In this document: positions 55,440-62,945 of the stretch, piece by piece | Layout: every line of letters starts with the position of its first letter | Position numbering within the stretch: the first letter of the stretch is position 1 | Assembly (NCBI RefSeq): GCF_029257255.1 | Contig: NZ_JARICI010000014.1 | Location: 31,765 to 95,764, forward strand | Direction of reading: 5' to 3' | Length of the DNA stretch: 64,000 nucleotides | DNA from: Sporosarcina sp. | GTDB lineage: Bacteria; Bacillota; Bacilli; Bacillales_A; Planococcaceae | The notes under the pieces: generated by a model | Database searches by the model: none | Told to the model about the DNA's origin: nothing | Seen by the model: the letters and a program-made list of their open reading frames with translations, nothing else | Program-made: the position numbers and the translations under genes

Positions 55440-55540
55440 TGAAAGTGGAGCTGTTTGGCTGGTCATTGCAGGATGACTGGCTGGATGGCTTTTTTTTGTG
55501 TTGTTGCATTTGTGGTAGTTTGTGAAACTTTTGGGGTGGC

Positions 55541-55690
55541 TATGATCGCGGGCGGAGTGGTTATGAGCGAGTTTGCGGTGGGAATGAGCACATGCCGGGT
55601 GAGTATGAGCGCCTGCGGGGTAGGTATGATCACTTGGCGACGTGGTATGAGCGGTTGTGGGGGGGCTAATGAGCGAGCAGGTTGTTTTCT
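55541..55690. repeat. Degenerate 21-bp-period tandem array, core TATGA(G/T)C(G/A)
   Basis: Units at 55541, 55562, 55583, 55604, 55625, 55646 exactly 21 bp apart; a seventh at ~55668. Confidence 0.85.
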
Positions 55691-55698
55691 AACTATGA

Positions 55699-55845
55699 TT
55701 GGTTCGTTCGTAGCGTCGTTTGGTTCGAGTGAACGCTAGTTTGGAGCGCTGCTTGCAGAATAACGTGCGGTGGTGGGAATGATTGGCTCGTTTGCACTGC
55801 GTTTTGGTGCGGTGCAGCCGTACTTTGGCGCGTCAGCCAGCTCCC
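55699..55845. repeat. Degenerate 21-bp-period tandem array, core TTGGN(G/T)CG
   Basis: TTGG at 55699, 55720, 55741, (55762 degenerate), 55783, 55804, 55825. Confidence 0.75.
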
Positions 55846-59350: not shown

Positions 59351-60601
59351 ATGAACGAAAATGAAATGATAAAGAAAATTGAAGTGCATGGCACGACGAA
59401 GATTTTCGGAAAGAATAGTAGGCGAGCTTCTCACATGCTGAAAGAAGGCAAGTCGAAACAGGAAATATTGAAAGCGACAGGTGCAACAGTCGGCGTGAAG
59501 AACGCTACTTTTGATGTTTATGACGGAGAAATTTTTGTCATCATGGGCTTGTCGGGGAGCGGAAAGTCGACGCTTGTCCGCATGCTTAATCGCCTTATTG
59601 ATCCAACAATGGGGAAGATTCTGATCGACGGGAAAGATATTGTCGAAATGAATAAAGAGCAACTGCGTGAAGTTCGACGGAAGAAAATCGGCATGGTATT
59701 CCAGAACTTTGCATTATTCCCGCATAAGACGATTCAGGAAAATACGGAATACGGCTTGGAAATCCAAGGCATTGCGAAAGCAACCCGTCAAGAGAAAGCG
59801 AAAGAGTCATTACGTCTTGTAGGGCTTGCGGGATACGAAGAGCAATATCCGAATCAGTTGAGTGGCGGCATGCAGCAGCGTGTGGGACTGGCCCGTGCGC
59901 TTGCGAATGATCCGGACGTTCTGCTGATGGACGAGGCGTTCAGTGCGCTCGATCCTTTGATTCGAAAAGATATGCAGGATGAATTGTTGCAGTTGCATCA
60001 TGATATGGGGAAGACGATTATTTTCATTACGCACGATCTTGATGAAGCATTGCGTATCGGTGACCGTATTGCGCTGATGAAAGACGGCGATATCGTACAG
60101 ATCGGGACGCCGGAAGAGATTCTCATGAGTCCATCCAATGAATATGTTGAGCGTTTCGTAGAAGATGTCGATTTATCGAAGGTGCTGACAGCAGGACATA
60201 TTATGAAGAAAGCGGATACAGTACAGGTGGACCGGGGTGCACGTGTTGCATTGCGTCTCATGAAGAAATTAAGCATTTCATCTATTTATGTAGTCGATAA
60301 AGGAAGTCGTCTGCTCGGGGCAGTTACGGCGCAAGATGCTGTTGCTGCCACGGAAGAAGGTAAGACTCTGGAAGATGTACTCATTCGAGATATTACGAAA
60401 GTGTCAAATGATACAGTGCTGACTGACCTGTTTGACGCAGTTTCGACTGCAACGGTTCCGGTGGCGGTCGTGGATGAACGCGATCATCTGCAGGGCATTA
60501 TTATCCGCGGTGCGTTAATTGGCGCGCTTGCAGGGGACGGACAGTTTATCAATAATGATCCTGTACCGGCAGAAACGGAAGAGGTGAGCACACATGAGTA
60601 A
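59351..60601 (+). CDS. opuAA: Glycine betaine ABC transporter ATP-binding protein (with CBS domains)
   Basis: GLSGSGKSTLVRMLNRLIDPTMG, LSGGMQQRVGLARAL; C-terminal CBS pair. Confidence 0.95.
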   Translation: MNENEMIKKIEVHGTTKIFGKNSRRASHMLKEGKSKQEILKATGATVGVKNATFDVYDGEIFVIMGLSGSGKSTLVRMLNRLIDPTMGKILIDGKDIVEMNKEQLREVRRKKIGMVFQNFALFPHKTIQENTEYGLEIQGIAKATRQEKAKESLRLVGLAGYEEQYPNQLSGGMQQRVGLARALANDPDVLLMDEAFSALDPLIRKDMQDELLQLHHDMGKTIIFITHDLDEALRIGDRIALMKDGDIVQIGTPEEILMSPSNEYVERFVEDVDLSKVLTAGHIMKKADTVQVDRGARVALRLMKKLSISSIYVVDKGSRLLGAVTAQDAVAATEEGKTLEDVLIRDITKVSNDTVLTDLFDAVSTATVPVAVVDERDHLQGIIIRGALIGALAGDGQFINNDPVPAETEEVSTHE

Positions 60602-61439
60602 GTTACCAAGATTACCATTTGCAGACTGGATTGACGTGGGAGTAGACTGGCTCGTTGTGACGTTCGGTACTTTGTTTGACGGCATTTCTGATTTCTTAAA
60701 GGGAATTGTCGAAGGATTGGTTACGGGGATGGACTTCGTTCCGTCGATATTATTGGCAATTATTTTCGCAGTAATTGCGTATGTATTGTCGACGCGCGGT
60801 ATCGCGTTGTTTACATTGATTGGATTATTGTTTATTGATTACTTGGGTTATTGGTACCCGATGTTGCAAATGCTTGCGCTCGTGCTGGCATCTGTCGCAA
60901 TCGCATTGATTATCGGGATACCTTTAGGGATTTTAGGTTCACAGTCACCGACTTCGAAGAGAATTATCAATCCGATACTTGATTTGATGCAGACAATGCC
61001 GGCGTTCGTTTACTTGCTGCCTGCAATCTTCTTCTTTAATATCGGAGTCGTACCGGGAGTTGTCGCGTCCGTTATCTTCTCGATGCCGCCAACAATCCGA
61101 TTGACAATGCTTGGTATTGAGCAGGTGCCGAAAGATTTAATTGAAGCAACAGAAGCATTCGGTTCAAAAACTTCTCAGCGATTGCTGAAAGTACAGATTC
61201 CATTAGCAAAATCAACAATCATGGCGGGTGTAAACCAGAGTATCATGCTTTCATTATCGATGGTGGTGATCGCTTCAATGGTTGGTGCGCCGGGACTCGG
61301 TGAGGAAGTGTACCGTTCCGTGACGCAGCTGAAGACGGGTAAAGGTTTTGAAACAGGGTTGTCGATCGTTATTGTAGCGATTATCCTGGACCGCATTACA
61401 CAGTACGCAGGTACGCGTAAGAGGAAAATAGTGAAATAA
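60594..61439 (+). CDS. opuAB: Glycine betaine ABC transporter permease
   Basis: DLMQTMPAFVYLLPAIFFFNIGVVPGVVASVIFSMPPTIRLT. Confidence 0.95.
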   Translation: MSKLPRLPFADWIDVGVDWLVVTFGTLFDGISDFLKGIVEGLVTGMDFVPSILLAIIFAVIAYVLSTRGIALFTLIGLLFIDYLGYWYPMLQMLALVLASVAIALIIGIPLGILGSQSPTSKRIINPILDLMQTMPAFVYLLPAIFFFNIGVVPGVVASVIFSMPPTIRLTMLGIEQVPKDLIEATEAFGSKTSQRLLKVQIPLAKSTIMAGVNQSIMLSLSMVVIASMVGAPGLGEEVYRSVTQLKTGKGFETGLSIVIVAIILDRITQYAGTRKRKIVK

Positions 61440-61440
61440 A

Positions 61441-61493
61441 GACGGGACTGCTCCGGAAATCATGTTTTTGATTTTCTGGGCAGTCTTTTTTGT
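61441..61493 (+). terminator. opuAB terminator
   Basis: GACGGGACTGCTCCGGAAATC...GATTTTCTGGGCAGTCTTTTTT. Confidence 0.7.
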
Positions 61494-61498
61494 GTGGA

Positions 61499-61645
61499 TG
61501 ATCATAAAAAGTTGAGAAGCGCTCGTACAGCATGGCTGAGTGATCATAGCAGCAACAAACTCGATCATACAGCATGGCTGAGTGATCATGGCAGCAACAA
61601 ACTCGATCATACAGTCTGCCTGCGCGCTCATAAGGAAAGCAAATC
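61499..61645. repeat. Degenerate 21-bp-period array, core (C/T)G(A/C)TCATA = reverse complement of TATGA(G/T)C(G/A)
   Basis: Units at 61499, 61520, 61541, 61562, 61583, 61604, 61625, exactly 21 bp apart; 42-bp higher-order dimer duplicated. Confidence 0.85.
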
Positions 61646-61736
61646 ATACTTGCAAGCTCCCATGGAATCTAGTATAGTAAGTGTAATATTCTGAACATAC
61701 CAACTGGTTAGTATAAGAGAAGGGGAGTCATAGATC

Positions 61737-62945
61737 ATGAACTTTTCATATTCAGAGAAAGTAGAAAAACTGCAGGCACAGGTCAAGGAGTTTATGGAGG
61801 AATATATTTATCCGAATGAAAGTGTATTCCGCAAGCAGCAGGAAGAGCAGGAAGATCGCTGGAATAAAGTACCGCCAATTATAGAGGAATTGAAATCTAA
61901 GGCAAAAGAGAAGGGACTTTGGAATTTATTCCTTCCTGACGACAGTGGTGGAGCAGGACTGACAAATCTTGAGTACGCGCCGCTTTGTGAAATTATGGGA
62001 CGGTCATTTATGGCACCGGAAATCTTCAATTGCAATGCGCCGGATACCGGCAATATGGAAGTGCTGGCGCGTTATGGCACGGATGAGCAGAAAAAGCAGT
62101 GGCTGGAACCTTTATTGGAAGGGGAAATCCGTTCCGCGTTCGCGATGACGGAGAAGGATGTCGCTTCAAGTGACGCGACGAATATCGAATCGAGCATAGT
62201 ACGCGACGGCGATGAGTATATTCTGAACGGTCGCAAGTGGTGGACGTCAGGTGCTGGAGACCCGCGCTGTAAAATTATGATTTTCATGGGGAAGAGTGAT
62301 CCGGATGCTGCGAAACATGAACAGCAGTCTATGATTCTGGTGCCCATGGATGCGGAAGGCGTAACGGTTGAGCGCATGTTGCCGGTTTTCGGCTATGATG
62401 ACGCGCCACATGGCCACGCAGAAATTTTATTTGAAAATGTTCGGGTACCGGCTGAGAATATGCTGTGGGGTGAAGGGAAAGGATTTGCAATTGCGCAGGG
62501 ACGCCTTGGGCCTGGTCGTATTCACCACTGCATGCGACTGATCGGAGCGGCGGAACGTTCATTGGAATTAATGTGCAAACGGGTGCAGGAGCGCGAAGCA
62601 TTCGGTAAGAAAATTGCGGAACAGGGTGTTGTGCAGCAGTGGATTGCGGAATCACGAATGGATATTGAGCAAGCTCGTCTGCTGACATTAAAAGCAGCAT
62701 ACATGATGGATACTGTCGGCAATAAAGTAGCGAAAGCAGAAATTGCGATGATCAAAGTAGTCGCGCCAAATATGGCATTGCGAGTGATCGACCGCGCAAT
62801 TCAGGCATTTGGCGGAGCGGGTGTCAGCGAAGACTTCCCGTTGGCCTATATGTATGCAGGATCCAGAACGCTGCGAATTGCGGATGGGCCGGATGAAGTT
62901 CACGCAAGACAAATTGCGAGACTCGAATTAAAAAAATATCGGTAA
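61737..62945 (+). CDS. Acyl-CoA dehydrogenase family protein
   Basis: Full-length ACAD motifs ([62 protein letters not shown]). Confidence 0.94.

Follow-up and report, generated by a model that had tools for sequence, protein, structure and literature searches.

Arrays of a conserved 8-bp word at 20–21-bp spacing, candidate tandem protein-binding sites behind terminators in Sporosarcina and its relatives

The chromosome of a Sporosarcina strain carries dozens of intergenic tandem arrays in which an 8-bp core (class 1, TATGAKCR) and its spacing are constrained, the filler between cores changes in a neutral-like manner, a particular unit number is preferred, and both placement relative to genes and position between species are conserved. 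With about even confidence, we propose that these arrays are tandem sites at which a sequence-specific protein or complex binds DNA, phased on the helix and situated behind transcription terminators.

Array loci in the window and the repeat class

The window, i.e., the whole 64,000-nucleotide stretch of DNA analysed, includes arrays near 55.5 kb and 61.5 kb. These were compared with G028, the closest relative found (taken as Sporosarcina cascadiensis A4), whose OpuAB is 98% identical. The main features are as follows:

55447..55492, plus strand: intrinsic terminator preceding the 55.5-kb arrays, from a terminator scan
55541..55688, plus strand: class-1 array of seven units, with one spacing of 22
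55698..55844, plus strand: class-2 array with core WTTGGYKCG and a 21-bp period; of its seven positions, the fourth is degenerate
60594..61439, plus strand: gene for a ProW/OpuAB-like glycine betaine ABC permease, its 3' end facing the 61.5-kb array
about 61446..61492, plus strand: intrinsic terminator of opuAB, by inspection, conserved in G028, its T-run abutting the last array unit
61486..61632, minus strand: class-1 array of seven 21-bp units, core TATGAKCR, with a seven-unit orthologue in G028 that matches it in place and orientation
61520..61603, minus strand: local duplication of a 42-bp dimer within that array, two copies with three substitutions, not in the G028 orthologue
61737..62945, plus strand: acyl-CoA dehydrogenase gene, downstream of the 61.5-kb array

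The seven units at exact 21-bp spacing that a first-pass annotation had described near 61.5 kb were recovered, with cores on the minus strand at 61625, 61604, 61583, 61562, 61541, 61520, and 61499. On the plus strand these read (C/T)G(A/C)TCATA, and CGCTCGTA and TGATCATG are units with one mismatch. The duplicated dimer noted there is real: Tandem Repeats Finder reported 61526-61614 with a period of 42, 2.1 copies, and a 97% match, and the three substitutions between the copies were counted by inspection. Both loci do follow a terminator, as had been claimed; the one behind opuAB is clear to the eye and is missed by the terminator scanner owing to its loop limit. On the other side of this array, the region upstream of the acyl-CoA dehydrogenase gene (61650-61736) is well conserved in G028.

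Overlooked in the earlier annotation was the class-2 array, which begins 10 bp past the class-1 array at 55.5 kb. Class 2 occurs in both the window genome and G028, where its arrays frequently adjoin those of class 1 and, if complete, have roughly six or seven units, and was found in 9 of the 250 genomes sampled from the order. The two classes also appear to be interchangeable: at one locus (L060:9450-9596), both the window genome and Sporosarcina sp. P13 have a class-1 array, while the matching intergenic site in G028 has a class-2 array (L211:1674-1800) and no class-1 array. Both cores include a G/T-ambiguous position followed by an invariant C and a purine, and this common KCR-type 3' half suggests a related recognition of the two classes. 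Given their common pitch, niche, and 3' half and the substitution of one for the other at L060, classes 1 and 2 may be bound by related proteins that do the same job.

The suggestion that the arrays form a genuine repeat class, initially made from two loci, holds for many more. Across the 3.27-Mb window genome, the exact two-core 21-bp pattern had 97 matches compared to 0 for the reversed pattern, a control that is imperfect across taxa as it matches another array family in related genera. Scanning all periods from 12 to 33 over about 570 kb around arrays, read in stretches, yielded repeated 7-mers at 154 positions for a period of 21 and at ≤1 position for any other period. With relaxed chaining, these stretches contained 35 class-1 arrays of at least three units, 19 of which had exactly seven units and most others five or six. 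The arrays thus neither stand alone nor fall at random with respect to coding sequences: only 3 of 32 overlapped an open reading frame (ORF) of at least 100 aa by >30%, when about 26 would be expected at a coding density of 82%.

Conservation of core, spacing, and position

We evaluated core and filler separately in nine orthologous pairs of seven-unit arrays between the window genome and G028. Core identity reached 0.97 at positions 2, 3, 4, 5, and 7, whereas the 13-bp filler was 0.53 identical in register and 0.31 out of register, against a four-fold synonymous identity of 0.59 over 14,707 sites; the spacing was barely altered. Taken together, this indicates that the arrays are homologous by descent and that their filler drifts roughly neutrally, while core and spacing are kept. 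Array positions also recur in more distant Sporosarcina, namely S. aquimarina, Sporosarcina sp. P13, and G008 (another related genome), where flanking proteins are 59–97% identical and relative orientation is mostly retained. For instance, G008 has an array next to its prsA-like gene, and P13 shares five loci.

Between non-orthologous loci, a weak likeness of fillers by unit index is present (0.46 vs 0.36 in G008), and G028 includes a recently dispersed subfamily of about 15 array copies, one of which spread as a unit whose limits coincide with those of the array (−2 to +153). Copying and purifying selection thus both act. At G028 loci L195, L198-L204, L211, L212, L214, and L218, a seven-unit array was seen inside a mosaic repeat of several hundred bp that has dispersed recently.

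Unit number is preferred rather than fixed, the proportions below being affected in their exact values, and not in their main contrasts, by the partial choice of other-species loci for good array match. Exactly seven units were found in 44 of 52 G028 arrays and seven or eight in 16 of 19 G008 arrays; the spacing 21-20-20-20-20-21 occurred in nine arrays of that genome. Arrays in Sporosarcina sp. P13 are longer (4–27 units), some being long and homogeneous, and the Fictibacillus loci examined have 5–6 units. Arrays also occur in Planococcus, Bhargavaea, and Evansella, and a three-core pattern was matched in 57 of the 250 sampled genomes, spanning 7 of 19 genera. Across ten taxon sets, core-to-core spacing was 20–21 bp almost without exception, which is the signature of helical phasing. 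Several Sporosarcina genomes had no exact match to the core pattern, hence any function would not be essential to the genus. Two variants were noted along the way: G008 arrays (L261-L275) mostly have a TGTGAAGT leader ahead of the first unit, and those of Fictibacillus nanhaiensis (L098, L126, and L135, 5–6 units) have in common a conserved 3' tail, GTGTAACA..TATAAGAACACGTACCGT.

The first-pass proposal that arrays expand by slippage or recombination was upheld in part. It is consistent with the local 42-bp duplication and with the expanded P13 arrays, but the G028 orthologue has seven units without the dimer. Slippage or conversion must therefore have left the count unchanged at 61.5 kb, and slippage explains only the local duplication.

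Placement and candidate function

Arrays are associated primarily with gene ends, with the caveat that gene calls were simple ORF calls, which affects exact proportions and not the main contrasts. In the window genome, 27 of 31 arrays are no more than about 330 bp from a gene 3' end, and many directly follow a terminator. Convergent gaps are enriched both here (12 of 34 vs 55 of 308 in the background, p = 0.02) and in G008 (12 of 18, p = 1.6e-5), and divergent gaps are under-represented. Neighbouring genes are functionally mixed, so that the special tie to osmoprotectant uptake suspected in the first-pass annotation does not generalize and an osmoprotectant regulon was rejected. Other arrays are preceded, for instance, by genes for a Snf2-type helicase, PrsA, a fructokinase-like kinase, ThiW, an SBP_bac_5 protein, a LysR regulator, an enoyl-CoA hydratase, a dicarboxylate symporter, or SHMT.

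A conserved word at conserved spacing within freely drifting filler suggests that some putative protein probably binds the arrays. The 20–21-bp period would bring every core onto one face of the helix, where about seven protomers (or dimers) could assemble side by side across about 143–147 bp, possibly cooperatively. Such a cooperative binding platform would be the simplest account of why the pitch is fixed, one unit number is favoured, and words are conserved amid drifting filler. Because arrays sit behind terminators, in convergent or tandem gaps and rarely in divergent ones, their likeliest role would be that of a post-terminator nucleoprotein barrier or insulator, either stopping read-through or serving as an anchor for topology or the nucleoid, and not that of a promoter operator. 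Unit number is not universal, however, as Fictibacillus and P13 show, and the dispersed G028 subfamily counts against the binding-site model in that it shows spread by copying.

This spread is what the main rival explanation accounts for, namely a dispersed repeat family (REP/BIME- or STAR-like) that is selfish or copied passively and whose core would be kept for the copying machinery, without host function. Alongside the G028 subfamily, in which the common unit can be array-sized, it is consistent with species-specific array versions, the same-index filler similarity in G008, and tandem array duplicates in that genome. It does not explain how positions have been conserved for so long with the cores undamaged: many arrays are ancient and were passed on vertically, and their cores persist although fillers have diverged to near the synonymous level. 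Moreover, neither inverted ends nor a linked transposase was seen at the array loci read, and plasmid, phage, and viral collections held essentially no similar arrays, which also led us to reject a plasmid or phage origin. Overall, we consider the selfish repeat unlikely, if still deserving serious weight.

The remaining alternatives each address part of the placement or structure of the arrays. Gyrase or a nucleoid protein might preferentially wrap DNA at these sites and relax positive supercoils between convergent genes, as in gyrase-binding BIMEs; this would suit the phasing, the convergent-gap enrichment, and the array length of about 14 helical turns when set against the gyrase wrap length. 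Yet the 8-bp core, which hardly varies, has a greater specificity than known gyrase sites, and the filler lacks a gyrase-like bending phase in its composition (no 10.5-bp pattern, with GC-rich positions 14–15 one turn from TATGA), making a topology element improbable. The location of arrays in 3' regions would also fit a read-through or antisense RNA with repeated protein-binding motifs, which we deem slightly less probable again: folding z-scores were scattered between −2.3 and +1.5 without a shared structure, no Rfam family was matched in the window, arrays occur on either strand with respect to neighbouring genes, and tolerance of 20–21-bp spacing fits DNA pitch rather than flexible RNA. 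Cores tend to lie on the strand opposite to the leading strand (21 of 31 arrays in the window genome and 26 of 40 in G008, i.e., 47 of 71; pooled p = 0.009), as a polar mark on the chromosome might, for example a barrier to replication forks or a sequence that orients segregation. A bias of only 2:1 led us to reject strict fork-barrier polarity, though, and may be secondary to gene orientation, and G008 arrays do not cluster near the terminus, so that a polar mark seems very improbable. Finally, the 42-bp dimer, the long homogeneous arrays of P13, and the equivalence of 21 bp to seven codons could evoke a neutral slippage VNTR or a decayed coding repeat (heptads YERxxxx/YDHxxxx). Stop codons nevertheless are as frequent as expected, or nearly so, in each of the three forward frames, and in most arrays the fillers vary from unit to unit around a constant core. 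The codons GAA, GAC, and TAC are almost never used within the core, and this avoidance of synonymous alternatives indicates a constraint on DNA letters, not amino acids. The nine-pair comparison of core and filler refutes this reading as a full explanation, and we give it next to no credence.

Relation to known repeats and operators

In CRISPR loci, 23–47-bp repeats alternate with unique spacers of about the same length and are accompanied by cas genes, whereas here an 8-bp core alternates with a 13-bp filler drifting roughly at the synonymous rate. In a simple VNTR the whole unit evolves alike and the count drifts, unlike the differing constraint on core and filler and the recurrence of seven units in G028. 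Plasmid iterons, such as the seven 22-bp direct repeats of R6K with a core like TGAG-N-G, are closer: they are also direct repeats about two helical turns apart in about seven copies, and the arrays fall within the 17–22-bp range of iteron tandem repeats. Iterons would thus make a good functional analogue for cooperative binding, but the arrays occupy dozens of chromosomal loci with diverged fillers, and neither a replication gene nor an origin was seen next to them; no Rep family was detected among the 3'-neighbour genes scanned, nor was a comparable plasmid record found. LytTR-type operators comprise two 9-bp direct repeats 12–13 bp apart upstream of promoters. Their repeats likewise recur at about 21–22 bp, but the arrays have about seven sites, a different consensus, and a location downstream of genes.

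The closest known kind is the STAR elements of Staphylococcus, which are also intergenic, dispersed direct repeats with a short conserved motif, variable spacers, and local expansion and contraction (PMC3532100). While the arrays similarly have several motif copies per dispersed intergenic locus, STAR elements are defined by a 14-bp GC-rich motif, T(G/A/T)TGTTG(G/T)GGCCC(C/A), in 1–7 copies with 40–44-bp spacers and no reported 20–21-bp helical pitch (PMC3532100), distinct from the TATGAKCR or WTTGGYKCG cores 20–21 bp apart described here. STAR locations also differ between species (PMC3532100), unlike the many arrays with common places across species. REP/BIME sequences resemble the arrays as dispersed extragenic repeats at 3' ends and proposed protein-binding platforms, but REPs are palindromes in alternating orientation, the associated repeats being tied to TnpA_REP/RAYT (PMC2817692, PMC8266576), whereas the arrays are non-palindromic direct units in one orientation at strict pitch. 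The TAACTGA heptamer repeats of Beggiatoaceae are also abundant intergenic direct repeats with a short core, yet in 7-bp units and mostly just upstream of start codons (PMC4679880).

No earlier description of the core or period was found among the open-access papers searched. The arrays could represent an undescribed chromosomal architecture system of Planococcaceae-type bacteria, a tentative proposal in which putative protein(s) would form fixed-size, roughly seven-member, helically phased complexes behind terminators, with two interchangeable site classes present in one genome; related genera have a further core, CGCGAGTATT, at this pitch. With their 20–21-bp pitch, count near seven, and near-neutral filler, the arrays are an unusually clear example of spaced DNA words under selection outside promoters, and they point to an unrecognised, putative DNA-binding complex at gene ends. 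Two classes and several species variants offer many natural replicates for the study of the space between bacterial transcription units, and such arrays are open to mis-annotation as short ORFs.

Through the reversed control pattern, two other genera of the family (L236-L240; G081, G166, G198, G132, and G275) were found by accident to have 21-bp-period arrays of the core CGCGAGTATT. It mirrors TATGAGCG, which may be coincidental.
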